64,000 bases of DNA from the NCBI RefSeq assembly GCF_040954835.1, contig NC_090716.1, forward strand, positions 1,661,605 to 1,725,604, in the 5' to 3' direction. Under the pieces are notes generated by a model. The model was not told the origin of the DNA. It did no database searches and saw only the letters and a program-made list of their open reading frames with translations. The stretch comes from Lepisosteus oculatus. Its lineage: Eukaryota > Chordata > Actinopteri > Semionotiformes > Lepisosteidae. Below are positions 3,001 through 64,000 of the stretch, in pieces. The position numbers and the translations under genes were made by a program. How positions within the stretch are numbered: the first letter of the stretch is position 1; each line of letters begins with the position of its first letter.

Positions 3001-6000
3001 CTACAACAATCACACCTCCAACTCCTACAACAACCTCCCACACTCCCTCTACAACAATCACCCCTCCACCTCCTACAACAACCCCCTACACCCCCTCTAC
3101 AACAATCACCCCTCCACCTCCTACAACAACCCCCACACTCCCTCTACAACAATCACCACCCCTCCACCTCCTACAACAACCCCCTACACCCCCTCTACAA
3201 CAATCACCCCTCCACCTCCTACAACAACCCCCACACTCCCTCTACAACAATCACCACCCCTCCACCTCCTACAACAACCCCTACACCCCCTCTACAACAA
3301 TCACCCTCTACCTCCTACAACAACCCCCCACACTCCCTCTACAACAATCACACCTCCAACTCCTACAACAACCCCCTACACCCCCTCTACAACAACCACC
3401 CCTCCACCTCCCTCTAAAACAACCCCCTACACCCCCTCTACAACAATCACACCTCCAACTCCTACAACAACCCCCTACACCCCCTCTACAACAATCACCC
3501 CCTCCACCTCCTACAACAACCCCCTACACTCCCTCTACAACAATCACCACCCCTCCACCTCCTACAACAACCCCCTACACCCCCTCTACAACAATCACCC
3601 CTCCACCTCCTACAACAACCCCCTACACCCCTCTACAACAATCACCCCTCCACCTCCTACAACAACCCCCTACACCCCCTCTACAACAATCACACCTCCA
3701 CCTCCTACAACAACCCCCTACACCCCCTCTACAACAATCACCCCTCCACCTCCTACAACAACCCCCTACACTCCCTCTACAACAATCACCCCTCCACCTC
3801 CTACAACAACCCCCTACACCCCCTCTACAACAATCACCCCTCCACCTCCTACAACAACCCCCTACACCCCCTCTACAACAATCACCCCTCCACCTCCTAC
3901 AACAACCCCCTACACCCCCTCTACAACAATCACCCCTCCACCTCCTACAACAACCCCCTACACCCCCTCTACAACAATCACCCCTCCACCTCCTACAACA
4001 ACCCCCTACACTCCCTCTACAACAATCACCACCCCTCCACCTCCACAACAACCCCCTACACTCCCTCTACAACAATCACCCCTCCACCTCCTACAACAAC
4101 CCCCTACCCTCCCTCTACAACAATCACCCCTCCACCTCCTACAACAACCCCCTACACTCCCTCTACAACAATCACCACCCCTCCACCTCCTACAACAACC
4201 CCCTACACCCCCTCTACAACAATCACCACCCCTCCACCTCCTACAACAACCCCCTACACCCCCTCTACAACAATCACCCCTCCACCTCCTACAACAACCC
4301 CCCACACTCCCTCTACAACAATCACCCCTCCACCTCCTACAACAACCCCCTACACCCCCTCTACAACAATCACCCCTCCACCTCCTACAACAACCCCCTA
4401 CACTCCCTCTACAACAATCACCCCTCCACCTCCTACAACAACCCCCTACACCCCCTCTACAACAATCACCCCTCCACCTCCTACAACAACCCCCTACACC
4501 CCCTCTACAACAATCACCCCTCCACCTCCTACAACAACCCCCTACACTCCCTCTACAACAATCACCACCCCTCCACCTCCTACAACAACCCCCTACACCC
4601 CCTCTACAACAATCACCCCTCCACCTCCTACAACAACCCCCCACACTCCCTCTACAACAATCACCCCTCCACCTCCTACAACACCCCCTACACCCCCTCT
4701 ACAACAATCACCACCCCTCCACCTCCTACAACAACCCCCTACACCCCCTCTACAACAATCACCCCTCCACCTCCTACAACAACCCCCTACACTCCCTCTA
4801 CAACAATCACCCCTCCACCTCCTACAACAACCCCCTACACCCCCTCTACAACAATCACCCCTCCACCTCCTACAACAACCCCCTACACTCCCTCTACAAC
4901 AATCACCCCTCCACCTCCTACAACAACCCCCTACACCCCCTCTACAACAATCACCCCTCCACCTCCTACAACAACCCCCTACACCCCCTCTACAACAATC
5001 ACCCCTCCACCTCCTACAACAACCCCCTACACTCCCTCTACAACAATCACCCCTCCACCTCCTACAACAACCCCCTACACCCCCTCTACAACAATCACCC
5101 CTCCACCTCCTACAACAACCCCCTACACCCCCTCTACAACAATCACCCCTCCACCTCCTACAACAACCCCCTACACTCCCTCTACAACAATCACCCCTCC
5201 ACCTCCTACAACAACCCCCTACACCCCCTCTACAACAATCACCCCTCCACCTCCTACAACAACCCCCCACACCCCCTCTACAACAATCACCCTTCCACCT
5301 CCTACAACAACCCCCTACACCCCCTCTACAACAATCACCCCTCCACCTCCTACAACAACCCCCTACACCCCCTCTACAACAATCACCCCTCCACCTCCTA
5401 CAACAACCCCCTACACCCCCTCTACAACAATCACCCCTCCACCTCCTACAACAACCCCCTACACTCCCTCTACAACAATCACCCCTCCACCTCCTACAAC
5501 AACCCCCTACACCCCCTCTACAACAATCACACCTCCACCTCCTACAACAACCCCCTACACCCCCTCTACAACAATCACACCTCCACCTCCTACAACAACC
5601 CCCTACCCTCCCTCTACAACAATCACCCCTCCACCTCCTACAACAACCCCCTACACCCCCTCTACAACAATCACCACCCCTCCACCTCCCTCTACAACAA
5701 CCCCCTACACTCCCTCTACAACAATCACCCCTCCACCTCCTACAACAACCCCCTACACCCCCTCTACAACAACCACCCCTCCACCTCCTACAACAACCCC
5801 CTACACCCCCTCTACAACAATCACCCCTCCACCTCCTACAACAACCCCCTACACCCCCTCTACAACAATCACCCCTCCACCTCCTACAACAACCCCCTAC
5901 ACCCCCTCTACAACAATCACCCCTCCACCTCCTACAACAACCCCCCACACCCCCTCTACAACAATCACCCCTCCACCTCCTACAACAACCCCCTACACCC

Positions 6001-9000
6001 CCTCTACAACAATCATCCCTCCACCTCCTACAACAACCCCCTACACCCCCTCTACAACATTCACCCCTCCACCTCCTACAACAACCCCCCACACTCCCTC
6101 TACAACAATCACCCCTCCACCTCCTACAACAACCCCCCACACCCCCTCTACAACAATCACCCCTCCACCTCCTACAACAACCCCCTACACCCCCTCTACA
6201 ACAATCACCACCCTACCCCCATCTACAACAACCCCCTACACCCCCTCTACAACAATCACCCCTCCACCTCCTACAACAACCCCCTACACCCCCTCTACAA
6301 CAACCAACCCTCCACCTCCTACAACAACCTCCCACACTCCCTCTACAACAATCACCCCTCCACCTCCTACAACAACCCCCTACACCCCCTCTACAACAAT
6401 CGCCCCTCCACCTCCTACAACAACCCCCTACCCTCCCTCTACAACAATCACCCCTCCACCTCCTACAACAACCCCCCACACCCCCTCTACAACAATCACC
6501 CCTCCACCTCCTACAACAACCCCCTACACCCCCTCTACAACAACACCCCCTCATACAACTTCTACGACAACCCCCTCTCCTCCACCATTCTCCCATACTC
6601 CGTCTACTACCAGAACATCAACCCCGTATCTCTCTTCTACATCAGTAACCTCTCCTTCTCCGTCTACATCACGTAAGTCTGATTCTCCTTCATCTTATTT
6701 GTTTATATAAAACAAACAGTATTTAAGTATAATACTGCAGCGACTTAGTTTAGAGTCATCAAGCCATTTAAAGATCTTGATAGTAACCAGTACTGACTGA
6801 AAATATTCTCCAGATCACTTTTTAAATATTTAATTTATGGGGACCTATGGGCTCTTTACTTATAATTAGAAGGTCTTGAGTTTAAATCCTCTTATTTTGT
6901 TATTTTACCCTTAATATTCTCAAAAGTAAATATGGTTAGGGTCTAGTGTGCTATCTCTGACATTATTTAATTTCTCCACAGATTCCACCACATTTTCAGT
7001 AATTACTGGTACTCATGGTAAGCATTCAACAGATGGACAGATTAAAACAGGAACAACACAAAAACCACCATGCCCTTGCATTTTGAATGGAACTCATTTT
7101 AATCCTGGTGAGTTAGACTTTTTACACACTTATGGAGAGTTTATTATTTATTATACATACATATAATTCATATTTATTTCCCCTTTTTTGTAATCATTTT
7201 TTGGTAACAAAATAACAACATAAAATAGAAAAACAGCCTCCTTTTCTATTATATCCTTTCCCTTCACCTCTCTTGGGTGGTAATCACCTCTACTCCCAAA
7301 CCGTCCCACAGAGAAGCCCCGATTAACTGAATCAACAAGTTGAGCACGGTGATGAACTCACTGGAGCTTAGATCTTGTCGGCTGTATCTATTGTCAAGAG
7401 GTAAAATGGAAATTGTTCCAAACAGCATCAGAAGAAATGCTTTCCTTTATACAAGGTACATATCTTTATCAAATGTCATGATCTCAGCAAAAGAAAGTAG
7501 AGCCAGGACACCAGTTTCATAGATTAGAGATGTGATTATTCTAGAATAAAAAAAGTACTCTGGACAAAAAAATGATGTGAAGTCACTTAATAAGGCACTG
7601 GGTCACCACATGTGGCCACTGCAATCTGTATGTGCCTATACCCTAGAGTCCACCCATGTCTGTAGTTCTGTACCACTCTTCCATGAGAAGTCAATCAACC
7701 ATACAGTACCTGGTTGGTGACTGAAGTGAAAAAAACACTCCTGGTCATAGTTCCTGAAGACCCCATAAAAACCCAGCTGGGTTCAGATGTGGTAACTGAG
7801 AATGTCATGACATACAGTATGGATATATCAGTGTCATCTCATCAAACTGTGCATGGAGGTGTAGTAATCATCCTGGAGATCACCCCTTCCTGCAGGAAAG
7901 AATTGCTTCAGGATGGGGTGAAGACCATTAAGTAGCAATAAGCTTTGTCCTTGTCTTCTAAGGGAATGAGTGCATACAAACCATGCCAAGAAAATTGCAC
8001 TTTACAACCTTGCTGAGCCACCAGAAGCCCTCACTGCTTTTGTAGTCTTCTTTAGGTTGGCCACAAACCTTTTTGTCTGTCATGAATAAGATGAAGGATG
8101 AATAACCTGACTCCATTGCATTTATCCCCTGTTCAACAGTCTCTTGCTAGCAGTCTTTGCACCACTGGACTCTCAAACATTGACACTTGTGAGGAGCAGT
8201 AACCTTAGCATTTTGAGCTGTTTTGATGACTGGAAGCCCTGCCAAATGCACCCCAACAAGCAACCCTCACTATCACTGCTTTTATTCTATTATTTATAGC
8301 CATTATTCTAGGCAAAGAGGCCTATCCAGCATTGATATACATGACTCAAGGCATACTGGGATGTCATTTCTTTCATTAGTGCATGAATCACACTTGTGTG
8401 GAAACTCTTGTTTTCCACATACTTGGTGTGCCTCATTTATGGAGAAGTTTCTAGTTCTTCCAAGAGTACCTCTACTTCTGTTGAGTTTGGTAGCAAAACA
8501 GAACAAGCAATAAAGTGAAAGGCAATAGTTTTGTTTGAAGTAATTTTCAGTAATGATTTCTAAATTCTGAGAAGACTGACCTCACTATTTCCAAAAATCA
8601 TTTGTGTTCAATATTGTGAATCCTTTCACATCTGACATGGAAATTGTACATGTGAATTGTAGATTTATTCTTCATATAAATAAATTAATTTTTGTTTTTC
8701 ATTTATTTTTCTGCAGGAATGAATATAAGTATTGTTAGAAATACAAATGGATTCTGCAATTACACTGTCTGTTCTGTTGCTTGTAAGATTGAGACAAAAC
8801 AAGAGCCGTGTCCTTTTGACTGCCCAACATGGAATAAAACAGTGAGTAAATTCTGCTAATGGTTTGGTTGATGTTCAACCAAACATTGTTGAGACCTTCA
8901 AGTAACATTCTCATAGGTTCAACAACCATTTTACACAGAGTAATTTCAGATTCATTAAGAAGTATTCATATAATAATTATAATTTCTTATTCAGGAATAG

Positions 9001-40700: not shown

Positions 40701-43700
40701 ACCGTGTGAATTTACTGACCTTTCAGATTATACTCTCAAGACCTGCCAACAGATTTCTGTGCTTAAATAAAATGTTATTATGCAAACAAAATTGTTTATA
40801 AATGTGTTTCAGAAGGACTATACAACAATGATTAATAAATAAAAAAATACTGGAGTTCTAAAATTATCAGCAAATAAAGCTTTGGCATAAGAAACAAGAT
40901 GTCAGGCAACTTGCTCAGCTGACCGTTAATGCTGTTCCGTGCAGCACCTGTGTCGGGGGACAGTGGAGCTGCCAGGACCTGGACTGTCCTAGAACCTGCT
41001 CTGTAGAGGGAGGCTCCCACATCACCACTTTCGACGGGAAGCCCTTCACCTTCCACGGAGACTGCTCCTACACTCTGGCCAAGGTCTGAGCTCACACACA
41101 CCGCCAGTCTATCACCTCTACAGTTCAAAGCAATTGCAGCGATAAGTACATTGCCCATTTTAAGAATATCTGGAAAGGGATTTAAAGGCAACTTCAAGAA
41201 ACCAAGCACACTAAATCTTCTGATGCTGTGAATGTGGACCTGTTTCTACTAGTGTGAAGTGTTCTCAAAGCATCTCAAACAATTAAACCGTCACGTTTCT
41301 TATTCTGTTCATTTTCCTTAGCAATGCAATGACAGTCAGTTCACAGTCTTGGGTGACATTGTCAAGTGTGGATTAACAGACACTGAGACCTGCTTGAAAG
41401 CTGTGACCCTGGCCATCTCAGCAGGACAAACTGTAAGTTACCTTTGAGCGTCCTTCATGCACCACACTGAAAAAGACAATCTATGCTGCTCTTTCCTGGG
41501 TGGGAGCAACCTGCCACTGTGGTCTAGGAATTGTCTCAGGTACTACTGTTAGCTTTTGGTGTCCCAGAACCCAGCTTGGGAATACAGTAAGTACCACCAG
41601 TGCATGTTTGGCACATTGTTGAGAGAGCAAGGTTAGGTAATAACGAAACTATTCAAATACGTATTGTAATTTCTCATCTCCAAGCAAGCCTGTAACCAGG
41701 TAACAAACCAAAATTACAAAGCAAATCATGCAGATTCTGCAGTGAAAAGTCTGCTGCACAACCTATACTTATTCGCTTGTACATCATATTACTATATTTA
41801 TTACAAGAACTAGTGAGCAGGAAGGGCAGCCTCACGTCACAGATTGTGGGAACTCTTGGTCTCGCCAGGGGGCTGCAACAACATTTTGTGCTTAATTACA
41901 AATTTGTACATTTTCTCTTTTAATTGATTTTGTTACTGAGATCCAATTACTGGTCTGAGAAACTGGGACTGCAGTTCCCCTTTGATTTAGAGGGGTAATA
42001 AAATGTTCAATATCTCCTCTACGTGTATATTCCACAGGTGATCAGCATCAAGCCCTGTGGAAGTGTGTTTGTGAATGGCATCTTTTCTCAGCTGCCACTC
42101 TCTACAGGTCAGCTCATTTACACTCTTATTCTACCCAATATATTGAATGAAAATTCATTATCACAATAAATAGTTTCTATTAGCCTGGACAAGGCTGGCA
42201 ACACTGTGAGGATTACGTTTTTCGACTTCTCCAGTGCCTTCAATACTATCCAGCCCTTACTGCTAGGGAGGAAGCTGGAGGAGATGCAAGTGGGTGCCTC
42301 CATGATCTCATGGATCACAGACAATCTGACAGGCAGACCACAGTCTGTGAGACTTCAGAACTGTGTGTCTGAACATGTAGTGAGTAACACAGGGGCTCCT
42401 CGGGGGACAGTTCTTTCTCCGTTCCACTTCACCGTCTAAACTTCGGACTTTAAATACAACTTTCTATGCGGTAGTATGCTGGGGCTCTGGGTATAGAGCA
42501 GGGGATGCTAACAGGCTGAACAAACTCATCAGAAGAGCAAGCTCTGTCATTGGGTCTGACCTGGACCCCCTGGAGGTAGTGGCTGAGAGGAGAGTGGTGT
42601 CCAAACTAGAGGCCATCGTGGACAAGATCTCCCATCCCCTCTATGACATGCTGTGAGAATGAAGAGCACGTTCAGCAATAGACTGATCCACCCGGGGTGT
42701 GACAGGGAGCGCTACAGGAGGTCATTCTTGCCTTCTGCCATAAGACTGTACAACTCATCCACTGTGTGTCTGAGCAGGGGCAACACTGACATTGACCTGT
42801 TTCTGGACTAAACAGTAAACTCTCTGCTACATCTGGCTCTTTCATTTACAACTGTTTTTCTGCAATATATGCCAGGGACGTGTGCAATATATTTATATTT
42901 ATATTTATAATGTGCAGTACAACTTTTTCTGTACTGTTCTGGTTTGTGCTTTTTATATTTTGGACTGTGCACAATTCTTCTTAGTGCACTTCTCACTGAC
43001 TGTACTGATTGTATTATAGTATATGTATTGTATTGTATTGTTATATTATTATATAATTTCATTACACTGTTGCTGTGTTGTTTGTGTTAAGCTGCTGCTG
43101 TACTGCAATTTACGGGATCAATGAAGTATCTATGTAATATGATATTTGCGATTGCAGCGGATGTCGTCATCTTCAGACCCTCCACATTCTACATCATTGT
43201 CCAAGCCTCCTTGGGGCTCCAGCTACAGGTACAGCTCACTCCGGTCATGCAGGTCTACATCACCGTCAGCTCCTCCAACAAGGGACAGACATGCGGTACG
43301 TTCTGAGCTTCATCATGTCTTCAGAGAGATCCCGGACAACACTTAATTTAATCACTGAATGCCCAGTGCTAGAAATCCGATTATGAGTAAAACTGGTTTA
43401 TTAACCTCTTTACAGGTCTTTGTGGAAACTTTAACGATGTCCAAGCGGATGATTTTAAGACCAACAGTGGAATAGTGGAAGGAACAGCCGTAGCTTTTGC
43501 CAACACCTGGAAGACCACAGCGAGTTGTCCAGCTGTGACGACCAGCTATGAAAATCCCTGCAGTCTGAGTGTGGAGAACGGTAAGACTGGCCACCACTCC
43601 AGCAGGGTTTCAGTGTTACTGAGTCTGACCTGCAAATCCTGGCTGACATTCTGTAGGCTTGTGGAGCTGGGAAGCAACAGTCACAGGAAATGTTCTTGTT

Positions 43701-49700: not shown

Positions 49701-52700
49701 GGAAATGGACTAATGAAAACACAATTCCAGCTGTAGTATCCCCATCATCTGTTTCCCAGCCTGAAACTATTCAATATTGTCTTCTATTGTAGGTGAGACC
49801 TCTCTATCATCAAGCACTCCAGGGACCACCAGCTGTGTGGAAGAAGTGTGCCAGTGGTCAGTCTGGTATGACATCAGCTCCCCAACTAAAGACAATGAAG
49901 GAGATCATGAGACATATGATAACATCCGAGCTAAAGGACATTCAGTGTGCGCTCACCCAATTGAAATTCAGTGCAGGGCCCAGGATTACCCCAGCACTCC
50001 TCTAGGAGACCTAGAGCAAACAGTACATTGCAACAGATCTTTCGGACTTAAATGCAACAACAAGGAAAATCCCACTGTGTGCTTGAATTACGCCATCAGA
50101 GTGTTTTGCTGTCGTGTTGTGCCTTGTGGAACAACAAGTGTACCGCCGATAACGTCTTCCAGTACAACACCAAAGAAAACAACAACCCCAAAGACAACAC
50201 CTGAAGAAACAACATCAGCCCCGTCAACAAAATCTTCTCCTTCAACATCCTCAGCACCAAGCTCCACGGAACGTACCAGCACTGCAACAGTAACAACGCG
50301 ACCACCTCCGTCATCATCCACTGTTGTTTCCACAACATCCAGAGGAACACAGCCCCCTAGCACATCAACTTCACTTCCCACAACCATCTCCACCAGCTCA
50401 CCAACCACCTGCCGGCGCCCATGTAAATGGTCCCAGTGGTACGACACCACTTTCCCCACACTTGGAACCCCAGGAGGGGACTCTGAAACGTATGACAACA
50501 TAAGGAAACATGGTGGAAAAATATGCGAAAAACCAAGAAAAATTGAGTGCAGAGCAGAGAAGTACCCAGATAAGGCCATAGACGATGTGGGTCAGATTGT
50601 GCAATGTGATGTTGCGAAAGGACTTATATGTAAAAATGAAGACCAGTCAGGCATGGTCCCATTGTGCTATAACTACCAGGTGAGGGTTCTGTGCTGTGAT
50701 GAGTATCAATGTGAGACAACGACAGAGCCAACCACTCCTATCACAACCCCTCCCAGCACAACCACTCCAATCACAACCCCTCCCACCACAACCACTCCTA
50801 TCACAACCCCTCCTATCACAACCCCTCCCACCACAACCACTCCTATTACTACCACACCCAGCACAACCACTCCCACAACAACCACTCCAACAACAACCCC
50901 TCCCATCACAACCCCTCCCACCACAACCACTCCTATTACTACCACACCCAGCACAACTACTCCCACAACAACCACTCCAACAACAACCACTCCCATCACA
51001 ACCCCTCCCACCACAACCACTCCCATCACAACCCCTCCCAGCACAACAACCCCCATCACAACCACACAGAGCACAGTAACTCCCACCTTAACGACTCCCA
51101 TAACAACCACTCCAACAACAACCACTCCAATCACAACCACACCCAGTACAACCACTCCTATCACAACCCCTCCCACCACAACCACAACCATCACAACCCC
51201 TCCCACCACAACCACTCCTATCACAACCCCTCCCACCACAACCACTCCTATTACTACCACACCCAGCACAACTACTCCCACAACAACCACTCCAACAACA
51301 ACCACTCCCATCACAACCCCTCCCACCACAACCACTCCCATCACAACCCCTCCCAGCACAACAACCCCCATCACAACCACACCGAGCACAGTAACTCCCA
51401 CCACAACGACTCCTATAACAACCACTCCAACAACAACCACTCCAACAACAACCACTCCTATCACAACCACACCCAGTACAACCACTCCTATCACAACCCC
51501 TCCCACCACAACCACTCCAATCACAACTCCTCCCACCACAACCACTCCCATCACAACCCCTCCCAGCACAACAACCCCCATCACAACCCCTCCCAGCACA
51601 ACCACTCCTATTACTACCACACCCAGCACAACTACTCCCACAACAACCACTCCAACAACAACCCCTCCCACAACAACCACTCCTATCACAACCACACCCA
51701 GTACAACCACTCCTATCACAACCCCTCCCACCACAACCACTCCTATTACTACCACACCCAGCACAACTACTCCCACAACAACCACTCCAACAACAACCCC
51801 TCCCACAACAACCACTCCTATCACAACCACACCCAGTACAACCACTCCTATCACAACCCCTCCCACCACAACCACTCCTATTACTACCACACCCAGCACA
51901 ACTACTCCCACGACAACCACTCCAACAACAACCACTCCCACAACAACCACTCCCATCACAACCACTCCCACCACAACCACTCCCATCACAACCCCTCCCA
52001 GCACAACAACCCCCATCACAACCCCTCCCACCACAACCACTCCTATTACTACAACACCCAGCACAACTACTCCCACAACAACCACTCCAACAACAACCAC
52101 TCCTATCACAACCCCTCCCACCACAACCACTCCCATCACAACCCCTCCCAGCACAACAACCCCCATCACAACCCCTCCCACCACAACCACTCCCATCACA
52201 ACCCCTCCCAGCACAACCACTCCTATCACAACCCCTCCCACCACAACCACCCCCATCACAACCACTCCCACCACAACCCCTCCCACCACAACAACACCTA
52301 TTACAACCACACCCAGCACAACCACTCCTATCACAACCACTCCCACAACAACCACTCCCATCACAACCCCTCCCAGTACTTCTTCACCAACAGCTTCAAC
52401 AACAGTGTTCACTCCTACTTCACACTGCACTGTGTGTGAATGGTCAGAATGGATTGATGTCAGTTATCCTACTTTTGGTCCAGATAATGGAGATAATGAA
52501 ACCTACACAAAGATTAGGGATTCTGGTATTCATATTTGCAACTCTCCAGAGGCAATTGAGTGCAGAGCAGTAGACTATCCAAATGTCCCCCTCTCAGACC
52601 TGGGGCAGCATGTGGAATGCAACCCATCAGTAGGACTGATTTGCAAAAACAAAGATCAGGGTATACCACCAATGTGCTTCAATTATGAAATCAAAGTTAA

Positions 52701-55700
52701 ATGTTGCAAAAATATATGTACCACAACTACTGGCAAATCAACTTCATCTACAACAACTACAGCTGCTACCCATACATCATCTAAGAGCACTACACCTCAG
52801 ACAACAACACAAGGACCCACTACAACTAAATTAACTAAATCTCCTGAAACCACTACAACTGTTCCCACCACCACTACTTCAACAACAACTGTGTCTACGG
52901 AGACAACTACAACAGAAAAACCAACAACTACAAAATCAACACATACAACCGGGACTACCACCACTGTTAAACCAACCACTTCTTCAGCAACAACTGTGAC
53001 CACAGAAACTACCACATCATCTTCTACTCCTATCCCTGTGACTTCAACTGCACCCATTAAAACAACATTCTCTTTTATTACTGGCAGAACTCGAATGCAC
53101 TCAACAGAGCATCAGGTTCAGACAACAAATACATTCACGACTACAACTACAACAGAAAAACCAACAACTACAAAATCAACAACACCAACCAAGACTACCA
53201 CTACTCTTAAACCAACTACTACTTCAGCAAAAACTGTGACCACAGAAACCACCACATCTACAACAGAAACCTCAACAGCTCCCTCTACATCCACCCATGT
53301 AGTCTCAACAACATCACAAGTTGTCACAACCCCTACTCCTGTCACCACAACAGAGACCACCTCTATACCCTCTTCTACAAGAGTAACCACAGCTTCATCC
53401 CCTGAGACAACAACGTCCTCATCAACAGAGAGCACCACTACTTCAACAACAACTGTGTCTACGGAGACAACTACAACAGAAAAACCAACAACTAGAAAAT
53501 CAACACAACCAACCAAAACTACCACTACTGTTAAACCAACCACTACTTCAGCAACAACTGTGACCACAGAAACCACCACATCTACAACAGAAACCTCAAC
53601 AGCTCCCTCTACATCCACCCATGTAGTCTCAACAACATCACAAGTAGTCACAACCCCTACTCCTGTCACCACAACAGAGACCACCTCTGTGCCCTCTTCT
53701 ACAAGAGTAACCACAACTTCATCCCCTGAGACAACAACGTCCTCATCAACAGAGAGCACCACTACTTCAACAACAACTTTATCTACTGAGACAACTACAA
53801 CAGAAAAACCAACAACTACAAAATCAACACAACCAACCGAGACTACCACCACTGTTAAACCAACCACTACTTCAGCAACAACTGTGACCACAGAAACCAC
53901 CACATCTACAACAGAAACCTCAACATCACCCTCTACATCCACCCTTGAACCCTCAACAACATCACAAGTAGTCACAACCCCCATTCCTGTCACCACAACA
54001 GAGACCACCTCTGTGCCCTCTTCTACAAGAGTAACCACAACTTCATCGCCTGAGACAACAACATCCTCATCAACAGAGAGCACCACTACTTCAACAACAA
54101 CTGTGTCTACGGAGAAAACTACAACAGAAAAACCAACAACTACAAAATCAACACAACCAACCGAGACTACCACCACTGTTAAACCAACCACTACTTCAGC
54201 AACAACTGTGACCACAGAACCCACAACACCTACAACAGAAACCTCAACAGCTCCCTCTACATCCACCCATGTAGTCTCAACAACATCACAAGTAGTCACA
54301 ACCCCCACTCCTGTCACCACAACAGAGACCACCTCTGTGCCCTCTTCTACAAGAGTAACCACAACTTCATCCCCTGAGACAACAACATCCTCATCAACAG
54401 AGAGCACCACTACTTCAACAACAACTGTGTCTACGGAGACAACCACAACAGAAAAACCAACAACTACAAAATTAACACAACCAACCGAGACTACCACCAC
54501 TGTTAAACCAACCACTTCTTCAGCAACAACTGTGACCACAGAAACCACCACTTCTACAACAGTAAAACAGAGTTCATATTCACCAACAGCTTCAACAACA
54601 GTGTTCACTCCTACTTCACACTGCACTGTGTGTGAATGGTCAGAATGGATTGATGTCAGTTATCCTACTTTTGGTCCAGATAATGGAGATAATGAAACCT
54701 ACACAAAGATTAGGGATTCTGGTATTCATATTTGCAACTCTCCAGAGGCAATTGAGTGCAGAGCAGTAGACTATCCAAATGCCCCCCTCTCAGACCTGGG
54801 GCAGCATGTGGAATGCAACCCATCAGTAGGACTGATTTGCAAAAACAAAGATCAGGGTATACCACCAATGTGCTTCAATTATAAGATCAAAGTTAAATGT
54901 TGCAAAAATATATGTACCACAACTACTGGCAAATCAACTTCATTTACAACAACTACAACTGCTACCCATACATCATCTAAGAGCACTACACCTCAGACAA
55001 CAACACAAGGACCCACTACAACTAAATTAACTAAATCTTCTGAAACCACTACAGCTGTTCCCACCACCACTACTTCAGCAACAACTGTGACCACAGAAAC
55101 CACCACATCTACAACAGAAAGCTCAACAGCTCCCTCTACATCCACCTATGTAGTCTCAACAACATCACAAGTAGTCACAACCCCTACTCCTGTCACCACA
55201 ACAGAGACCACCTCTGTGCCCTCTTCTACAAGAGTAACCACAACTTCATCCCCTGAGACAACAACATCCTCATCAACAGAGAGCACCACTACTTCAACAA
55301 CAACTGTGTCTACGGAGACAACTACAACAGAAAAACCAACAACTACAAAATCAACACAACCAACCGAGACTACCACCACTGCTAAACCAACTACTACTTC
55401 AACGACAACTGTGTCTACGGAGACAACTACAACAGCAAAACCGACAACTACAAAATCAACACAACCAACCGAGACTACCACCACTGCTAAACCAACTACT
55501 ACTTCAACGACAACTGTGTCTACGGAGACAACTACAACAGCAAAACCGACAACTACAAAATCAACACAACCAACCGAGACTACCACCACTGCTAAACCAA
55601 CTACTACTTCAGCAACAACTGTGTCTACGGAGACAACTACAACAGAAAAACCGACAACTACAAAATCAACACAACCAACCGAGACTACCACCACTGCTAA

Positions 55701-58700
55701 ACCAACTACTACTTCAGCAACAACTGTGTCTACGGAGACAACTACAACAGAAAAACCAATGACTACAAAATCAACACAACCAACCAAGACTACCACCAAT
55801 GCTAAACCAACTACTACTTCAACAACACATTCAAAAACAACTGAATGTGGCTGCCATTACAACGGGAAGCTGTTTCCACGTGGTATGTAAGATACTGTAT
55901 ATATATTTAGAACTATATGCTTTTTATGTGTCATTACATGTGAGGAAATTAACGAGTCAAATCAGAACATCTTTCTATACACAAATAATCATGACATTGT
56001 GAAAGACACCTCCCAGCCATGTTGAAGCAGATTTATCGGGAACCTTCACAAAACAGCTTGATAGACACTTTGATGAATAGGTTACCACCAACCAAACAGA
56101 CATAAATTATAACAGACATATAATTATGAATCTCTGCTTAAATCATCTAAATATCTGTCCATGTCTCATTCTTTATCCAGAAGGAGTCCTCTCAGACATT
56201 CTAAAATACTTCTTTAAATCTATTAGTGTGGGACAGATTTAAGACCAGAAATGAGTCTGAACAAACCAAAAATGCTAATCTGAACATATTAAGGTCAATA
56301 ACAATACAAAATGCAAAAATAGTTTTCCTACTAGTGCTTAACCCATTATTTCACCTTGTGTTTTAACGTTCAGGTTCACTGCTGTATAACACTACTGATG
56401 GCGATGACTGGTGCTTCACTGCTTTCTGCAACGAGACGTGTGAAATAGAGAAACACTCCAAGCACTGTCACACCACTGCTTCTCCTCCAACCACAAGCGC
56501 CCAGACCTCCACTGCAGTTGGCCCAACAACACCAGGGAAGACAACTACAGCCAAATCAACTCCCACAAAGACAGAGTCCTCCACTGCTGAGACATCAGCC
56601 ACAGCTCCAACCACCAGCCTCCCAACCACAACTCATCCATTAAACTGTGACCAGCTTACACCTCCTAGAAAGGTACTTTATATCTCACTTTCTGGGTATT
56701 ACTTGAATTAATAGGAAAATGTGTTTAGTTCTAAATGTTGCTCTTTAAAATAACATTATTGTGTAACTTACTGCAATTTCTTTAAATCAGTATTTTACTG
56801 AATTATTAAAATTATATTAAACACTAGTGTTTATTACCAGAACATCAAACAATTTGTGTCAATCTAAATAAGCATTTTAATTTCAAAATATCTGGTAATA
56901 TTACTGTACAGTAGGTGTCACATTTTATTACATTGGCACTGTATGAATATCTTGTTTTGCTTTGTTTCATTTTGATAATTATTATACTGTTTCTAAGCTT
57001 GACAGAAATGTGCAGAGACTTTGTCACACTATTGTGCCTTTGCTCAGTTTCATTCATCTTTTGTGCTAGCATGGCGAATCCTGGCACTTTGGCAACTGTA
57101 CCATGGCAACTTGCCAAGGAGGCTCCAACATCACACTACAGCCGGTGCCCTGTGAGCCTGTGACTAAACCACAGTGTGCCAATGGTCTGCCTCCGCTTGA
57201 GAAGTATGATGAATCTGGGTGCTGCGTCCGCTACGAGTGTCAATGTAAGATCTCCACAACAGCAAAGATTAAAAATGTATTTCAACATTATGACACAAAG
57301 ACAAACTAGGAAGACAAAACACCTTCAAGATTTGAACTCGCAAAATGACAAAACACAAACATGAAAGATTCTTCTGTTTTGATCTCACCTGAAAATTTGC
57401 ATGCACTCCCATACTTTTTCTTACTCTTAATTATAATACTATGTTAGTAGTTCAGGTGGGTAGCTGCGTCAGCATGCGTAGGCTGCAAAGGAACAAGTAA
57501 TAGGTTTATTCGATGCTGAAAAAACGAAGAAAGAAAACACAACGTTTCGGCCGTGGAGCCTTCTTCAGGTGAAGAAGGCTCCACGGCCGAAACGTTGTGT
57601 TCTCTTTCTTCGTTTTTTCAGCATGGAATAAACCTATTACTTGTTCCATTATAATACTATTACTACATTGATTTTTCTGTAACAACATTTTCATTTATTC
57701 CACCGAACTGTTCAGTTTTACATGTGGAAATGTGTGTCCATTATCCACTAACACATATTTCTTAATTTTCCTCTCATGCTCAAGTGATTTATTCTCACAC
57801 CCCTGTCACTACCTTGCTACAGAACACAATTTAGCTTAAACTGCAACAAATAAAGCAGAGCTTTACAACAGTCAAATTGTCTTTCAAAAAGAAACAAATC
57901 TATTTGATTTATATTAAAACACACATTTTTGTATGGGTTCCAATAAAAGCATCATATAAAACTTTAGTTTTAGAAATTGACTTACAGAAAACAGTTAAAG
58001 TAATGATCACAGCAGGTTATTTTCTGAGAAATGTTCAATTAAACATTTGAACATTTCTGAATACCAGGGCATTGTTAGGAAAACCTGCTTGGGATAGCAC
58101 AGATTGAATTCAGTTATTAAATACTGTATTATGAAAAATACAACATGAAAATCACCAAAACTATTAAACATGCATATACATAATATTCCTTTGCAAGTCT
58201 AGGATCCTTATCGGCTTGTCTGCTACATGTAGAACACCTGGCAAGTGGTCTTATCAACAAGTCTCTTGTGTGCCTCCCCAGGTGTCTGCTATGGGTGGGG
58301 AGACCCTCATTATGTCACCTTTGATGGACAATACTATGGCTTCCAAGGAAACTGCACCTACGTGTTGGTCAAGCAGATCATCCCCAAATACGACAACTTC
58401 ACCGTTATCATTGACAACTACAATTGCCACTCTGAGGATGGCCTGTCTTGCCCCAGGTCTCTGACTATCTATTACAAGTCGTATGAGGTGATTCTGGACC
58501 AGCGGACAATCAATGGAATCACTACAAACTTGGTAACTGTTTCCCTATTTGTTTAGTTGTTTAGAGGGCAGAAAGCTTTCTAAGAGGAACTTTAGGATGA
58601 GTTAAGACTTTCTTCTACCTTCATCAGAAGTCAAACTAAAGTGGAATAAACAACGAAAGGGATCATTCTAACTATTGTTATATAAATTTTTAACTTTAAA

Positions 58701-61700
58701 TTTATTCAAATCCCCTGATGAAATCAAAGGGTTTTGAATAAATTTAGGGATTTTTGTGCATATGATGAACAAAAAAATATCATATAAAAGTCTGACTTGT
58801 GTGTGCTTAAAAAATAAAAAAAAAGTTAGATTTTTGTATAGTAGTGCCACACAGAAGAAATCCATGTGACACCGCTGTATCATAACCCTATTATTTCATC
58901 AATTCTTCTCTGGCTGGGACTTCATCTGAAAAGATGTGTCCCATACTTCCAGGCAGAACTGTGCTAGTTTCTTTAGTTCCTGTGGTTTTTAGTGGTGATC
59001 AGCTTTCTCAAATGTTAGATTGAATGGAGGCCTGGATATTGACCTCAATACAATATGTAAACATTAAATGTTTTATTTAATGCTTATTTAATACAGTTAC
59101 ATTTTTTTACTTGCATCTTATAACTATAAAAAAAATAGTTTTTTTAATATTGAATAACATTCACAAAAATGTACCAGTCTGATGTTTGGATCAGTACAGT
59201 ATATTGTGTAAACTATACAATTGCACAAAATTTATAAAAACAAAATCAAAGCAAACATTAAACACAATTAGAATCTGTACAAATGAAAGAACCTGAGTGA
59301 TTCAAATAAGTGCATTTTTATGTTATTGTGTTTGTTATTAATCCATTCTTCTAAAATTTCTCAGATATATGTCAACCAAAAACGAATCATTCCAGCCTAT
59401 AAAAACAGCGTCTTTACAATTACAAGCAGTGGAATTGACATGGTTCTGGAAATCCCAGAGATCAACGCTCTAGTCTCATTCAAAGGCCTCATGTTCAGCA
59501 TCTTCTTGCCCTACTCCCTCTTCCATCACAACACGGAAGGACAGTGTGGTAAGAGGAGACTGTTCATTGTCTTCACGCTTATTCTAATCAGAGCTGTTGA
59601 GCAACTGTGATCATTGAGAGACGAGGGAGAAAACAAACGAGGAGCATTCTCTTAAGCTACATGCAAACGCCTCCTTGCATAGCTGTTTTAACAAACTTGA
59701 TCTGGTTATGTGTGTTTAATTAACTTAATTTATTTTCACATACACTGTATTCTAATTAAATTATCCTAATTAAATCTGCTTTCCTCTATTTTAAAGGTAA
59801 CTGTGACAACACAAGGAAAAATGACTGCAGGCTGCCAAATGGACAGATAGATCCCTCATGCCCTGACATGGCCAAACACTGGCGTATTCATGACAAGAAT
59901 AAACCCTACTGTGACACTACAACTACAGTGAAGCCTCCTGTGACAACACTGCCATCAAGAACAACAGAGTCACCCGTCTGCAATCCAGCCATCTGTGAGA
60001 TTATCTACGGAAAGTAAGCAGAATCAAGTGTAACCTCAAGAATCCTTGTGTTGTATCTTCATAGGACAGTAGTCACATTCCTCAAAAAGAAAATAAAAAA
60101 TTAGCACAAAAACAGGACAGCCACGCTTTACCTCTTAATGAACACTACCGCATAAACTCAAAATTCAATCTTATTAACACAGTAGAGAGCTGAGGGCAGA
60201 CAACGTCTGCTGTTTGAAATGTAGAACGTTTTGCTGTTGTGTGACTCGACGCAGCTGATGCGACCCCTCTGCCGCAGGGTGTTTGAAGAGTGCCGCACAG
60301 TGATTCCTGCGCTGCCCTTCTACGAGGCCTGCAGGTTTGACGTCTGCCACATGCCCCACACCAAGATCGGCTGCTCCAGCTTGCAAGCGTACGCCGCCCT
60401 GTGCGCATCGGTCGGAGTCTGCGTCGACTGGAGGAGCGCGACAGGGGGAGAATGCGGTAGGGCCAAGTCAGAAAACAGCGGGGTAGCTGCCTTCTTTACT
60501 GCTCAAGGGCTACCAGTGTACAGGAGAAAACATGTGAGCTCAACTGAGTACGGGCAACAACTGACCGAATCTGTGCTGTACCAGATACCACACTCAGCTC
60601 CATAAGAAATTCATTTTTAATTTCCACTAAACACATGATTGTCTCTTCAAGTTACTGTAGAACACAGCAGGAACTCAAGGTCCCCTTTTCTGCTCCTATA
60701 CAGACTATAACTGCTCAGCAACCAAGGTGTACAAGCCATGTGGACCAGCAGTGCAGCCAACCTGCAATGCAAGGTAAGTGAAATGAGTTGCCTTCAGCTG
60801 AGCACACACTAAGATTTACCTTTGTGATTCTCTTTATCATACTTTTGAATTATTATGCAATAAAACAATCCCATACACTCAATTTAAGTTTCAAAGCTAT
60901 TTGTATGCCACAAAAATAAAGCACAGTCATCATTTTCTAGACAATTCTCAAGATCAGACTCCAGATCTAATAATATGTACAGTGTTACATTTTCTATCAG
61001 TCACACTAAACACAGGCTAAACACAAATGCTGTGTTCACACTTTTAAACAGGTACAATGAGAAATTCATCCAGCAGAGCAGCAGAGAGCAGACAAGTGAC
61101 TTCACTGAGGGCTGCTTCTGCCCCCAGGGGACGATCCTGTTCAACTCCTTCTCAGACATCTGTGTCCCCTCCTGCGGTAAGGACTGCTGGCCCCCACACT
61201 GGGTTACAGAAGTTACAGAGTACCCACCTTCCAGGTCAATCCAGCGCTAGTACACTGTTTACAGTGAAATACATGACGTTTGGGAAGCTAGACATAATTA
61301 GCACTTTATTAGTTATTTTTCAGGCTTTATTTTCAGTTTTCTTTTATTGTTGTTTATAAAAGAGATCCGCACAGAGGATGAAGCTACAGCAGTATTCACT
61401 GAGGAATTAACTCTGTTTTAAAACTTTCTGTTTAGACTGCACTGGACCAGATGGGAAACCAAAACTGGTAATGACATTTTATATGTTATTGTTTTTTCTT
61501 TATTTGTGTCTTATTCGATTAATTACCAGTATGTCAATGGTCAAGATAAGAGATCTTTAAAGCAGGAGCTCTTTCCCTCCACATACTCTTCTGCATAGCT
61601 GAGCTAACGGCAGGTGCCCGAGGGCAGGATAAGCTGGTGCATTCACTCTGTGTGTCTGCCCTCAGCCTGGCGAGACGTGGGACAGTAACTGCAACGAGTG

Positions 61701-63319
61701 TGTGTGTGACGTCGATTCAATGAGCGTGCAGTGCAAACCCCGGCCATGCCCCAGGCAGCCCCCCGTCACCTGCAACAAGGAGGGCCAGGTGCTGGTAACT
61801 GAGACAGTCGACTGCTGCAACAAGTCCCGATGTGGTGAGTAGCTGCAGGGACAGGGACAGACTCAGGACTGGAGGGGTTAGTGCTGCTGGGAGACTGGCT
61901 CTTTCAACAGCATCATAGAGGTGCAGCATTCAGAGCAGCACAGTTAATGCTTTGAAAAGACTATTGCTATTAAACTATTACAGTACTTTTCCAGTTTATC
62001 ATTTTGTACCTTGCTAATAAGCATATGCTTAGCATGCTTTAAGCATACTCTTTTCTTTGGTGCAGTTTTAACATGTTTCCTGTTGCCCCCTGTTCTTTAT
62101 TGCTCTTCTTCCCAATAGAGTGTGATGTAAAACTCTGCCCAAAACCACAAAACAACTGTAAACTAGGATTCAGACCAGTGATAACAACCCCAGAAGGAAG
62201 CTGCTGTGCTGTTTATAAATGTGGTGAGTGTTACTGGTGTTTTCCACTGTGCTGTGCTGACACTGTCAGTAGCTGTCTTCCCAGGAATGATAAGAAGACG
62301 ACCTGTTCTTCTGTATTTATAGTATTTATTATTCACAAAGGTTTTTAATACAACCAGATGCTCAGTAGAGAATCCAGTTTATTTTCACGTCTATTTTTAA
62401 TTAAACTGATTCAAGATTTATTTATTTCTTTACAGAACCAATAGGTGTCTGTGTTTTCAATAATACTGAATACAAGGTAAGATCCTTAACTAACTTTAAC
62501 TTATTCTGGGCTTGCAGCTGGCCAGATCCTTTGACATGTGAATACAGACACTTTACAAATCAAGACAAGGTCATGTTATACCATTTCAGTTACTTCTGAA
62601 ATGAGTTTGAAAATTAAATGACAATTACATGTGTACACGTGTTCTTATGTTGCATATTTTGTGTGTATTTGTCTATGAACTACAATGACTTTAGTAACTG
62701 GATGTGCAAATTCACTTCAGTTGCCCTATCAGCTGTTAACAGGTTGGGGTCTCCTGTCCTCTGTGTGATTCTAAGGGTGGTTCTGTTTTGCTCTCATCAC
62801 AGCCAGGTGTCAGTGTCCCTAAAGACACATGTGAGTTGTGCCAGTGCAGTTATGAGGTGGATCCCAATACAAGACTGAACATCATTGCCTGTGATCCAAT
62901 GCGCTGTGACAAAAACTGTCAGCTGGTATGGAACTTCCCTCAAAATTCCTACTGATATCATATCTACAGAATCATAAGGAAAGACAATTGGCTATATTTC
63001 TGTGTGACTAAAATGTGTTAATTAAGGTGTCCCTATTAATAACATTTTTTATGAAGACTATTTCTAGCAATATTCTGAATTACAAAACCACCAATATAAA
63101 ATCTATACTATCTAGTATTATTTCTTAATACTTTTCCAACTTTCTGACTAATGTGCTGCAGATGAGAATAGAAACTGGTTAACTGGTTGCCTGTGTTCTG
63201 TACATTCATTTTCTCTGCAGGGTTTTACATATCAAGCTGTCCCTGGACAGTGCTGTGGCCAGTGTGTACAGGATAGCTGTGTCATCATGCTGCCAGACCA
63301 CACAGTGCATGTCATTGAG
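35735..63319 (+). CDS. muc5-like: Gene B: gel-forming mucin, MUC5AC/MUC5B type, 5' and middle (3' end outside window)
   Basis: Forty-five exons joined by GT-AG sites with consistent phase, 4058 codons: 35735-35813, 37250-37306, 37639-37707, 37839-38100, 38438-38552, 39085-39175, 39382-39488, 39832-40048, 40219-40344, 40542-40659, 40945-41083, 41322-41432, 42038-42107, 43158-43295, 43416-43580, 43790-43884, 44486-44612, 44719-44974, 45254-45306, 45841-45941, 46164-46315, 46469-46607, 46907-47017, 47119-47298, 47499-47738, 47908-48064, 48255-48383, 48863-49013, 49127-49170, 49277-49492, 49793-55882, 56374-56672, 57070-57244, 58282-58532, 59365-59548, 59797-60013, 60278-60456, 60704-60773, 61052-61176, 61436-61467, 61666-61834, 62119-62223, 62436-62476, 62803-62925, 63221-63319. 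Domains: signal, D1, D2, D'D3, PTS with four CysD, D4, C8, TIL, VWC. The multiple CysD domains and D1 wording favour MUC5AC/5B over MUC2. The knot exons should follow beyond the window. Confidence 0.92.
35814..37249 (+). other. Gene B intron 1, 1.4 kb
   Basis: AT-rich first intron with no exon or named repeat visible. First introns of secreted mucins can hold enhancers, but nothing here can be assigned by eye. Confidence 0.5.
37839..40659 (+). CDS. muc5-like: Gene B D1 assembly (VWD1, C8, TIL, E; exons 4-10)
   Basis: VWD1 opens with [18 protein letters not shown] and [10 protein letters not shown], close to the wording of MUC5AC/MUC5B D1. The CGLC motif lies at 39118-39129 followed by GDFNG. 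The C8 module is exon 39832-40048 ([27 protein letters not shown]). TIL is in 40219-40344 ([26 protein letters not shown]), and the E-like piece is in 40542-40659 ([17 protein letters not shown]). Family knowledge: D1 and D2 act in pH-dependent N-terminal assembly in the Golgi. Confidence 0.93.
40945..44974 (+). CDS. muc5-like: Gene B D2 assembly (exons 11-18)
   Basis: VWD2 starts with [20 protein letters not shown] and [20 protein letters not shown]. Its CGLC motif is split over the exon 14/15 junction ([16 protein letters not shown]). C8 spans 43790-44612 ([37 protein letters not shown]). TIL follows in 44719-44974 ([38 protein letters not shown]). A dead LINE sits in the intron between exons 13 and 14, and the exon borders are intact. 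Confidence 0.92.
42181..43133 (+). mobile_element. Internally deleted LINE (Rex1/L2-like) in gene B intron
   Basis: The + strand encodes RT blocks [25 protein letters not shown] and [13 protein letters not shown], then at about 42440-42465 jumps directly to the late ORF part ([39 protein letters not shown]). The stretch with the catalytic F/YADD box is missing. The element ends with GGGATCAATGAAGTATCTA, a tail typical of fish LINEs. Several stops follow. Inactive. Confidence 0.8.
45254..49170 (+). CDS. muc5-like: Gene B D'-D3 assembly (exons 19-29)
   Basis: D' is exons 45254-45306, 45841-45941 and 46164-46315 ([28 protein letters not shown]). VWD3 begins [19 protein letters not shown] (46469-46607) and has CGLC at 47508-47519 with [11 protein letters not shown], an acidic loop of the type that binds calcium in VWD domains. 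C8-3 is 47738/47908-48064 with [23 protein letters not shown]3 is 48255-49013 and a short E-type exon is 49127-49170. D3 forms intermolecular disulfides in MUC5B and VWF. Here that is inferred from the Cys pattern. Confidence 0.92.
49277..49492 (+). CDS. muc5-like: Gene B exon joining D3 to the PTS region
   Basis: Encodes [39 protein letters not shown] and then a Thr-rich start of the PTS. The same NTTDG and Cys wording recurs in exon 32 before D4, suggesting that the two PTS borders are related. It ends in phase 1 before GTAGGT. Confidence 0.9.
49793..55882 (+). CDS. muc5-like: Gene B giant exon: PTS domain with four CysD domains
   Basis: A single 6090-bp exon of about 2030 codons with no stop. 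The acceptor is at 49791-49792. The ATG at 49777 is in the intron and is not a start. Layout: CysD1 (49834-50127), PTS1, CysD2 (50410-50712), a pentad array (50713-52425), CysD3 (52426-52719), 108-residue repeats, CysD4 (54622-54915), 35-residue repeats, then [15 protein letters not shown] at the 3' border. CysD modules interspersed in PTS are typical of MUC5AC and MUC5B, where they make reversible non-covalent contacts in the gel. The PTS has hundreds of Thr and Ser for O-glycans. Confidence 0.95.
49834..50127 (+). other. CysD domain 1 (WSVW)
   Basis: About 98 residues beginning [18 protein letters not shown], with the WxxW motif (49855-49866) that marks CysD, then IQCRAQDYP and a terminal VFCCRVVPC. 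Confidence 0.93.
50410..50712 (+). other. CysD domain 2 (WSQW)
   Basis: Begins [17 protein letters not shown], WxxW at 50428-50439, with IECRAEKYP and VLCCDEYQC. Clearly diverged from the other three copies. Confidence 0.93.
50713..52425 (+). repeat. PTS pentad array (15/30-bp repeats)
   Basis: Built of alternating five-residue units such as ITTPP and TTTTP or STTTP, usually paired into a 30-bp period. Larger blocks of the array have also been copied (for example the [17 protein letters not shown] blocks). The + strand is almost G-free. Frame is kept throughout. Confidence 0.93.
52426..52719 (+). other. CysD domain 3 (WSEW)
   Basis: Begins [18 protein letters not shown], WxxW at 52441-52452, ends VKCCKNIC. 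Near-identical to CysD4, 2196 bp downstream. Confidence 0.93.
52900..54621 (+). repeat. PTS 324-bp (108-residue) higher-order repeats
   Basis: The phrase [14 protein letters not shown] starts at 53140, 53464, 53788, 54112 and 54436, exactly 324 bp apart each time. A diverged earlier unit starts at 52900, 240 bp before. Each unit includes [20 protein letters not shown] and [19 protein letters not shown]. Confidence 0.92.
54622..54915 (+). other. CysD domain 4 (WSEW)
   Basis: Copy of CysD3 with two amino acid changes inside the domain (V to A, E to K). WxxW at 54637-54648. Confidence 0.93.
55315..55839 (+). repeat. PTS 105-bp (35-residue) tandem repeats
   Basis: Five units with ETTTT(E/A)KP(T/M)TTKST starting at 55315, 55420, 55525, 55630 and 55735, a strict 105-bp period. 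Units are nearly identical. They correspond to one third of the 324-bp unit with the rest dropped. Confidence 0.92.
56374..57244 (+). CDS. muc5-like: Gene B linker exons between PTS and VWD4
   Basis: Exons 56374-56672 and 57070-57244. The first has [21 protein letters not shown] and a further PTS stretch before [10 protein letters not shown]. The second has [15 protein letters not shown] and [12 protein letters not shown] and is 175 bp as in gene A. Compared with gene A, the first exon is longer because of the additional PTS piece. Confidence 0.92.
57443..57647. mobile_element. Penelope-like (pLTR-type) palindromic insertion in gene B intron
   Basis: Flanked by a 13-bp direct repeat ATTATAATACTAT (57430-57442 and 57648-57660), consistent with a target-site duplication. 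It consists of a 47-bp leader and two 77-bp inverted arms (57490-57566 and 57571-57647) with only two mismatches and a 4-base centre. The sequence type (GAAACGTT with CTTCTTCAGG) resembles the terminal repeats of Penelope-like elements dispersed in fish and amphibians. No reverse transcriptase is present. Confidence 0.65.
57538..57571 (-). ncRNA. Hammerhead-ribozyme-like core (candidate)
   Basis: Read on the minus strand: CAC, CTGAAGA, an extra A, GGC-loop-GCC (stem II), GAAAC, GTT, GTG. CTGANGA and GAAA are the invariant hammerhead core, GTT is an allowed NUH cleavage triplet, and CAC pairs with GTG as stem I. ACGT around the site is palindromic, as in dimeric hammerheads. The + strand copy has G in place of core C3 and should be inactive. 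Penelope-like elements are known to carry hammerheads. Activity here is inference. Confidence 0.5.
58282..59548 (+). CDS. muc5-like: Gene B VWD4 domain (2 exons)
   Basis: Exons 58282-58532 (251 bp) and 59365-59548 (184 bp). Opens [19 protein letters not shown] with GDPH at 58299-58310. Then [20 protein letters not shown] and, in the second exon, [18 protein letters not shown]. Lengths and phases are those of gene A. Confidence 0.93.
58299..58310 (+). other. GDPH autocleavage motif codons, gene B
   Basis: GGA GAC CCT CAT, Gly-Asp-Pro-His, in the same place as in gene A and in MUC2/MUC5AC. Motif seen; cleavage inferred. Confidence 0.85.
58533..59364 (+). other. Gene B VWD4 intron, 0.83 kb
   Basis: AT-rich, poly(A)/poly(T) runs, no recognised element. 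It splits VWD4 at the same position as in gene A (10721-11347). Confidence 0.55.
59797..60456 (+). CDS. muc5-like: Gene B C8 region after VWD4 (2 exons)
   Basis: Exons 59797-60013 and 60278-60456 (179 bp as in A). They encode [15 protein letters not shown], a Thr-rich spacer, then [20 protein letters not shown] and [18 protein letters not shown]. The second exon is GC- and CpG-rich compared with the gene A copy. Confidence 0.92.
60704..61176 (+). CDS. muc5-like: Gene B TIL module (2 exons)
   Basis: Exons 60704-60773 (70 bp, as in A) and 61052-61176. [21 protein letters not shown], then [19 protein letters not shown]. The second exon is 18 bp longer than in gene A. Confidence 0.88.
61436..62223 (+). 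CDS. muc5-like: Gene B first VWC module (3 exons)
   Basis: Exons 61436-61467 (32 bp), 61666-61834 (169 bp) and 62119-62223 (105 bp). [20 protein letters not shown], then VDCCNKSRC, then [13 protein letters not shown] and GSCCAVYKC. Standard VWC Cys pattern, parallel to gene A 16223-17435. Confidence 0.9.
62436..63319 (+). CDS. muc5-like: Gene B second VWC-type module (3 exons), last seen
   Basis: Exons 62436-62476, 62803-62925 and 63221-63319. [12 protein letters not shown], then [11 protein letters not shown] and CDKNCQL, then [20 protein letters not shown]. The last exon ends in phase 0 before GTGAGA. The next exons (129, 40, 118 and 169 bp in gene A) are expected to the right of the window. 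Confidence 0.9.
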
Positions 63320-64000
63320 GTGAGAGCACAACACTCAGCATATGAAATAGCTTATTTTTGTGCTGTTGGAAAACCTTTCTTTCAGGAATCATATGGTATT
63401 TCAGAAATAGCTGAATGTTACTCTGACATGTAAAATGATAAGAGCTTTAATCTGGCTAGAAAGTGCACCAATTAAACTTTGATCTTGGGCCTTATACCAA
63501 GTTTGTGAGGTTAATGAGGGAACAGAAACAGCCAGCAAAATCAATTTTAGCAACACAAGAAAAAGTGGCTATAAATGACAAAATTCACATTATAGATTGC
63601 TACTGTTTTTGAAGTGTAAACCTTTGCTTCACTGTTCATACTTGTCTCCTCTGCTGGGCAAAGGTTTTAGAGCAGCTATTTGCAAATTGAGACCACTTTG
63701 TGATGTGTGTATTTCTGTTTTTGAAGAAACTTTAATTTCTGTACTTGTATCAGGGCTATTTTATAATATTGTATATAATATTACAAAACAAGACTGAGAA
63801 AACTATCCTGGATAAGAAGAAATATATGCAGCTTACACAATTTACCATTGTTGGTAATAATTTTTAAAATCCCTGTTAATTTGGTCATTTCTAGTAAATT
63901 GTGAAAAGTTCTTTTTATTCCCCATTTAACCCAATTCAGCATCTTCTGTATTATTTTGTTATTTTTGCCAATTGCTGAAAAAAAAGATTTACTAACTAAA
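63320..64000 (+). other. Gene B intron running off the right edge
   Basis: AT-rich, no exon with the expected WSPPGDKCE-type sequence is visible. In gene A the matching intron is 823 bp, so the next exon probably starts just outside. Confidence 0.6.

Follow-up and report, generated by a model that had tools for sequence, protein, structure and literature searches.

The subject of this report is a 205-bp insertion in a mucin intron of Lepisosteus oculatus, which contains a hammerhead-like motif and lies in a stretch of 64,000 nucleotides (assembly GCF_040954835.1, contig NC_090716.1, positions 1,661,605 to 1,725,604 of the forward strand). The whole of that stretch is referred to as the window, and coordinates are given in its numbering. 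The insertion is probably a dead, protein-less end of a Penelope-like retroelement, in which one RNA end is present twice, in a head-to-head arrangement. It is likely to have arisen by priming from both strands of the target on the 5′ end of one transcript, with the two cDNAs joined at that 5′ end. The motif is taken to be an inherited relic, the 5′ end of the retroelement RNA, and not a selected intronic ribozyme.

Structure of the insertion

The insertion occupies positions 57443–57647 (minus strand, in the element sense of its tailed arm) and is bounded by a 13-bp target-site duplication, ATTATAATACTAT, present on the plus strand at 57430–57442 to the left and again at 57648–57660 to the right. 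When 20,000 pairs of random flanks were drawn from the window, 13 of them had at least 13 exact bases in common. Read along the minus strand, the insertion begins with a 78-nt inverted arm and the dinucleotide CC. The other arm, also of 78 nt, follows, with its opening inside the hammerhead, and last comes a 47-nt tail (57443–57489, minus strand) that is found on one arm only. The tailed arm (57490–57567, minus strand) comprises the hammerhead body and the sequence downstream of it, to TTGTTCC. The tail-less arm (57570–57647, plus strand) is an inverted copy of it, complementary at 76 of 78 positions. Between them lies a 2-nt centre (57568–57569, minus strand), which provides C3 of the minus-strand core (57568) and the innermost base of stem I (57569). 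Scored simply as an inverted repeat, the arms measure 81 nt (57487–57567 and 57570–57650), match at 96% and stand 2 nt apart. The insertion itself is without a protein frame, and a 62-aa translation of the palindrome gave no match.

On the plus strand, 57443–57647 would form an RNA hairpin of about 80 bp within the mucin intron, a possible substrate for editing or for small-RNA production. A microRNA gene was considered and rejected: 57524–57613 resembles mir-942, but its 58.9 bits fall short of the gathering score, which is 100. Both hairpins contain GUUUCGGCC/GGCCGAAAC, a likeness that is possibly due to chance and is ascribed here to a long hairpin that happens to hold GGCCGAAAC.

Copies of the insertion in the genome

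The genome searched was the window's own assembly (1.2 Gb in 813 contigs). An exact 25-mer from the arm occurs in it 11,250 times, with 5656 occurrences on one strand and 5594 on the other, and a control not at all. A pattern describing the palindromic junction has 935 matches, nested ones included; the reversed pattern, used as a control, has none. Among the first 100 places, all 12 pairs of neighbouring arm 25-mers less than 1 kb apart were arranged head to head. A first look yielded 1937 candidates, and the 40 best, picked by score and the only ones scored, are near-full copies. In the 30 of these 40 that were aligned, the tail and the arms are constant and the centre is variable. Duplications of at least 12 bp flank 28 of the 30 best-scoring copies fetched, or 22 of 24 distinct sites once copies with shared flanks are removed, and the 22 duplication sequences are 78% A+T, compared with 58% for the window.

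A second sample was selected by junction and not by tail. It consists of 48 of the 50 plus-strand matches listed of the 935, all on contig C1 and all with 0–20 nt between exact arms; the two others are longer matches that contain a listed shorter one. The first 35 of the 48 loci were fetched. Exactly one arm carries a tail in 32 of these 35 insertions (28 established from the alignment and four, L063, L050, L051 and L060, by reading the sequence by eye), and none carries two. Duplications of at least 11 bp were found in 26 of the 35. In the same alignment, four other loci (L010, L030, L031 and L044) gave no junction.

Perfect palindromes are a classic product of faulty assembly or library construction, in which an inverted chimeric read is formed, but the insertions have target-site duplications and tails confined to one arm, and there are hundreds of them at differing sites, which leaves such an artefact a negligible probability. 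The high copy number and constant architecture might also be expected of a palindromic non-autonomous element, either a foldback miniature inverted-repeat transposable element (MITE) or one resembling a short interspersed element, that spreads as a ready-made 205-nt palindrome. Junctions are, however, distinct in 35 of the 48, so that the centre looks newly made in most insertions; duplications of mostly 12–15 bp are ill-suited to a cut-and-paste MITE; and arms without a partner also occur, some of them with duplications recognizable by eye and one, L095, with a scrap of inverted tail. We regard this second explanation as quite improbable.

Three further observations concern individual regions. 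Five copies on contigs C48 and C158 (L011–L015) have identical flanks and an identical duplication, and represent a repeated segment that carries one insertion. On contig C1, at approximately 6500623–6566325, ten same-strand arm 25-mers, mostly spaced about 6.44 kb apart, mark a tandem array containing the element end. The arms at C1:1506414 and 1509482 were considered as the two ends of a full-length element, which was rejected because they belong to two separate insertions.

Relationship to Penelope-like elements

Assignment of the family is based in part on longer copies. In two of these, L100 and L103, the arm lies downstream of a GIY-YIG endonuclease frame, separated from it by a stop codon and about 170 nt. 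The frame in L103 (784–1227) matches the Pfam model with an E value of 2.9e–4 and has 670 relatives at E ≤0.001; the 120 listed show 42–53% identity, and some of them are annotated as PF01541. Among retroelements, a GIY-YIG domain is a marker of the Penelope-like group (PMC12910113). The insertions also have the hallmarks of that group, namely inverted pseudo-long terminal repeat (pLTR) ends, an optional tail and a target-site duplication, and inverted pLTRs and 3′ extensions are known Penelope peculiarities (PMC8969392). The arm motif was found neither in viral contigs nor in prokaryote genomes, and phage records gave none; three 18-mer hits to it in a viral-contig search were taken as chance.

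Origin of the paired arms

The relationship between the two arms of an insertion was assessed from the variants that they carry. Four of the five copies of the repeated segment (L012–L015, flanks as in L011) and L020 (flanks as in L019) were excluded from the variant and substitution counts, as were pairs with an arm too diverged to align; 61 pairs remained for shared variants and 130 arms for substitution rates. Arms of the same insertion share 23 variants, compared with an expectation of 2.5 and a maximum of 12 over 5000 random re-pairings. Such sharing is expected if both arms derive from one template.

Junction centres consist of 0–16 non-palindromic nucleotides, with 0–2 nt in 16 of the 48 and at least 3 nt in the other 32. 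Both the shared variants and the longer centres are features that a fold-back would also produce. In that explanation, a single cDNA with its start at the tail site reaches the RNA 5′ end, folds back and copies itself but is stopped before the tail, or, alternatively, an antisense transcript primes itself; self-priming has been published as the origin of palindromes of this type (PMC3846280), and a centre of at least 3 nt could accommodate a loop. Centres of 0–2 nt, however, are too short for an ordinary hairpin loop, and the filler of several nucleotides at other junctions resembles that of joined ends. Nor does a fold-back readily explain why the second arm is without a tail in 32 of 35 insertions and ends mostly near one place. 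The restriction of the tail to one arm, the variants that paired arms share and the 0–2-nt centres together favour priming from two strands, and the fold-back is considered unlikely.

The position at which the arms meet, and the positions at which unpaired arms begin, bear on the start of the template RNA. AGGTGT, the antisense of ACACC..., is reached by 56 of 96 arms, with no arm followed beyond 9 nt. Twenty arms have no close partner; seven of them have a long upstream stretch in common, four (L093, L095, L097 and L099) begin exactly at ACACCTGAAG, and L098 begins one base earlier. None of the 20 begins at the predicted hammerhead cut, the nearest being L089, two bases off. Because unpaired arms start at ACACCTGAAG and none starts at the cut, the 5′ end of the template RNA is probably close to ACAC, in the first strand of stem I, and is probably not a product of hammerhead cleavage.

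From these data we infer an order of steps. The element transcript would begin at about ACAC, in the first strand of hammerhead stem I (approximately ACACCUGAAG). The enzyme of the element would cut target DNA that is rich in A+T, leaving a stagger that is mostly 12–15 bases long, and the 3′ end of each target strand would then prime a cDNA inside the same transcript. One strand would prime at the tail site, some 125 nt from the 5′ end of the RNA; the other would do so further upstream, in most cases some 80 nt from that end. Each cDNA would extend to the RNA 5′ end at stem I, where the two would be joined head to head. The predicted product is a palindrome that has the hammerhead at its midpoint and a tail on only one arm, and that is flanked by a target-site duplication; the hammerhead would be present as a passenger, being the 5′ end of the transcript. 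A transcript that starts just upstream of the two priming sites would thus be expected to give a small head-to-head insertion. Whether Penelope-like elements in general prime each insertion on both target strands, at a tail site and an upstream site, and join the cDNAs at the RNA 5′ end is a wider proposition, for which we see the balance as even.

Several observations weigh against the interpretation given here, in respect either of the mechanism or of the element. A tail and a clear duplication were not found in three of the 35 junction-selected insertions (L048, L062 and L067), which are either decayed copies or real exceptions. Variants private to one insertion are present in both arms in five cases and in a single arm in 59, so that the case for one template rests on few; the 59 form a pattern that later mutation would give. 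Neither the three tail-less copies nor the private-variant counts favour a rival explanation. Forty of the 96 arms end before AGGTGT, and the starts of the short arms are more variable than two fixed sites predict (L049, L050, L051 and L053). The 32 centres of at least 3 nt are compatible with a self-folding cDNA, and the start sites of the anole element discussed below had no strand preference in vitro (PMC11167929). As for the element, the Pfam score of the GIY-YIG frame, 21.5 bits, is just below the cut-off of 22.6; the 74-aa C-terminal end of the L103 frame, searched alone, gave no match; and no reverse transcriptase frame was read in the family copies examined, which are broken or 5′-truncated upstream. 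With these points taken into account, two-strand priming on the 5′ end of a Penelope-like transcript is still the probable origin of the insertion.

The hammerhead-like motif

The window was scanned with a hammerhead core pattern, three mismatches or fewer being permitted. Two matches were found, a number reached in none of 100 shuffles. One is exact (57541–57568, minus strand) and the other (57569–57596, plus strand) has a single mismatch, C3 to G. The complete motif at 57538–57571, which had been noted in a preliminary description of this DNA, is as described: the minus strand from 57571 to 57538 reads CAC-CTGAAGA-A-GGC-TCCACG-GCC-GAAAC-GTT-GTG. It thus has the minimal type I core (CUGANGA, GAAA and the NUH cut triplet GUU), with a predicted cut between 57541 and 57540, and a stem II of GGC/GCC closed by a 6-nt loop. 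At the position of stem III there is a loopless A-U and C-G. The description of it as a hammerhead of the Penelope-like kind, sited in a mucin intron, therefore holds, in the form of a minimal type I motif without a real stem III.

The same description had read the G at C3 of the opposite arm as a change in its core. The base is indeed G, but it is not a mutation: the arm extends only as far as U4, and what follows is a base of its partner, so that the apparent change on the plus strand is a consequence of the join. Of the 48 junctions, 37 have C3 in both arms and 11 have it in only one. The join also affects stem I. Two of the three bases of CAC (57570 and 57571) come from the opposite arm, and the window copy has no stem I of its own; unpaired arms have ACAC/GUGU, of which it keeps one base on the 5′ side.

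It had further been suggested that this copy folds and cuts, and the results do not support that suggestion. No Rfam hammerhead was found at the gathering score in the window, and none at E ≤10 in 57401–57700. Computed folding energies are –140.7 kcal/mol for the hairpin of the insert and –82.6 kcal/mol for a forced hammerhead, a difference of 58 kcal/mol, by which the hammerhead fold is predicted to be inaccessible in its own transcript. The mucin pre-mRNA corresponds to the plus strand and carries G at C3; in the anole element this substitution is reported to abolish cleavage, and the hammerhead also needed its protein (PMC11167929). Self-cleavage of the window copy is very unlikely. The motif is taken as a relic because of the absence of an Rfam match, the energy of the hairpin, the borrowed stem I bases and the G at C3 of the plus strand.

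A working intronic ribozyme on the minus strand, perhaps dimeric, is nevertheless suggested by the exact core on that strand, and dimeric cutting is possible for Penelope-type hammerheads (PMC7761336). Against it, besides the Rfam result, the energies and the composition of stem I, the motif is antisense to the mucin gene, and the anole hammerhead without its protein showed no cleavage (PMC11167929). Six core positions that the search pattern left free have 13 substitutions in about 775 sites (1.7%), compared with 2.4% in the downstream arm, and so show little sign of protection. We consider such a ribozyme highly improbable. For core positions as a class, the substitution rate over the 130 arms is 1.0%, compared with 2.4%, but the lower value was discounted as evidence of selection, since the search pattern fixed several core bases.

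The host gene

The intron that houses the insertion extends from 57245 to 58281 on the plus strand, with donor GTAAGA and acceptor CCCCAG; the splice sites were read by eye, and the upstream exon ends in ..CQC. Exons neighbouring this intron encode VWD, C8 and WxxW domains of a gel-forming mucin, the relatives of which come from fish, birds, amphibians, reptiles and mammals. Three WxxW domains were compared with those relatives: the nearest counterparts of two are from salmonid fish, and that of the third is from a frog. Two long open stretches (18–6710 and 49765–55890, the second with WxxW domains) contain mucin-like tandem repeats rich in Thr and Pro. Elsewhere in the window, 42170–42436 is a reverse transcriptase fragment of another retroelement, at 29.3 bits against a cut-off of 29.6.

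Significance and comparison with known systems

Proposals for the integration of Penelope-like elements differ, one being self-priming on an antisense template (PMC3846280) and another the extension of both target strands from internal start sites, as observed in vitro (PMC11167929). Minimal hammerheads are known to occur in pLTRs and scattered through genomes (PMC6155905, PMC7761336). The present results supply an ordinary origin for one of them in an intron and, if the proposed mechanism is true, two-strand priming could account for many of the scattered minimal hammerheads of animal genomes. The titles and abstract openings searched, from a collection without most subscription papers, gave no tally of insertions with a single tailed arm, nor of head-to-head copies devoid of a frame. 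The hundreds of insertions in this genome, with their ends, tails, duplications and junctions, constitute an in vivo record of integration, and the three features that favour two-strand priming (a tail on one arm only, shared variants and 0–2-nt centres) can be counted in other assemblies.

In LINE-1 twin priming, a single RNA is copied from primers on both target strands, and an inverted segment results. The process proposed here differs in that both cDNAs would reach the RNA 5′ end, and the whole segment would consequently be duplicated head to head.

Small non-coding insertions bearing hammerheads are likewise found in animal genomes as metazoan non-LTR retrozymes (PMC7229834), but the insertion described here is a single retroelement end that occurs as an inverted pair. 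A retrozyme array was rejected, as there is no tandem array in 56300–64000 and the arms are inverted; tandem units with a full type I hammerhead were not encountered.

The inverted head-to-head pLTRs and palindromic junctions of Pen2a_Av and other elements of Adineta vaga (PMC3846280) are a close likeness. Their pairs have a 31-bp tail on one pLTR, which is optional, and duplications of 8–10 bp, and usually flank an element with a frame. In L. oculatus, by contrast, the pair is the whole insert, the duplications are mostly 12–15 bp and the copies number in the hundreds.

The Poseidon element PAc of Anolis carolinensis (PMC11167929) has, as here, a hammerhead at the boundary of pLTR and open reading frame. 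It further shares two reverse-transcription start sites that define the tail, cutting at AT-rich (ATT-rich) targets and extension of both target strands; the PAc hammerhead is dispensable. The two cases differ in that PAc is one element studied in vitro, in which the start sites showed no strand difference, whereas the insertions described here, of which the one in the window is without a frame, have one arm of each kind in 32 of 35 cases.
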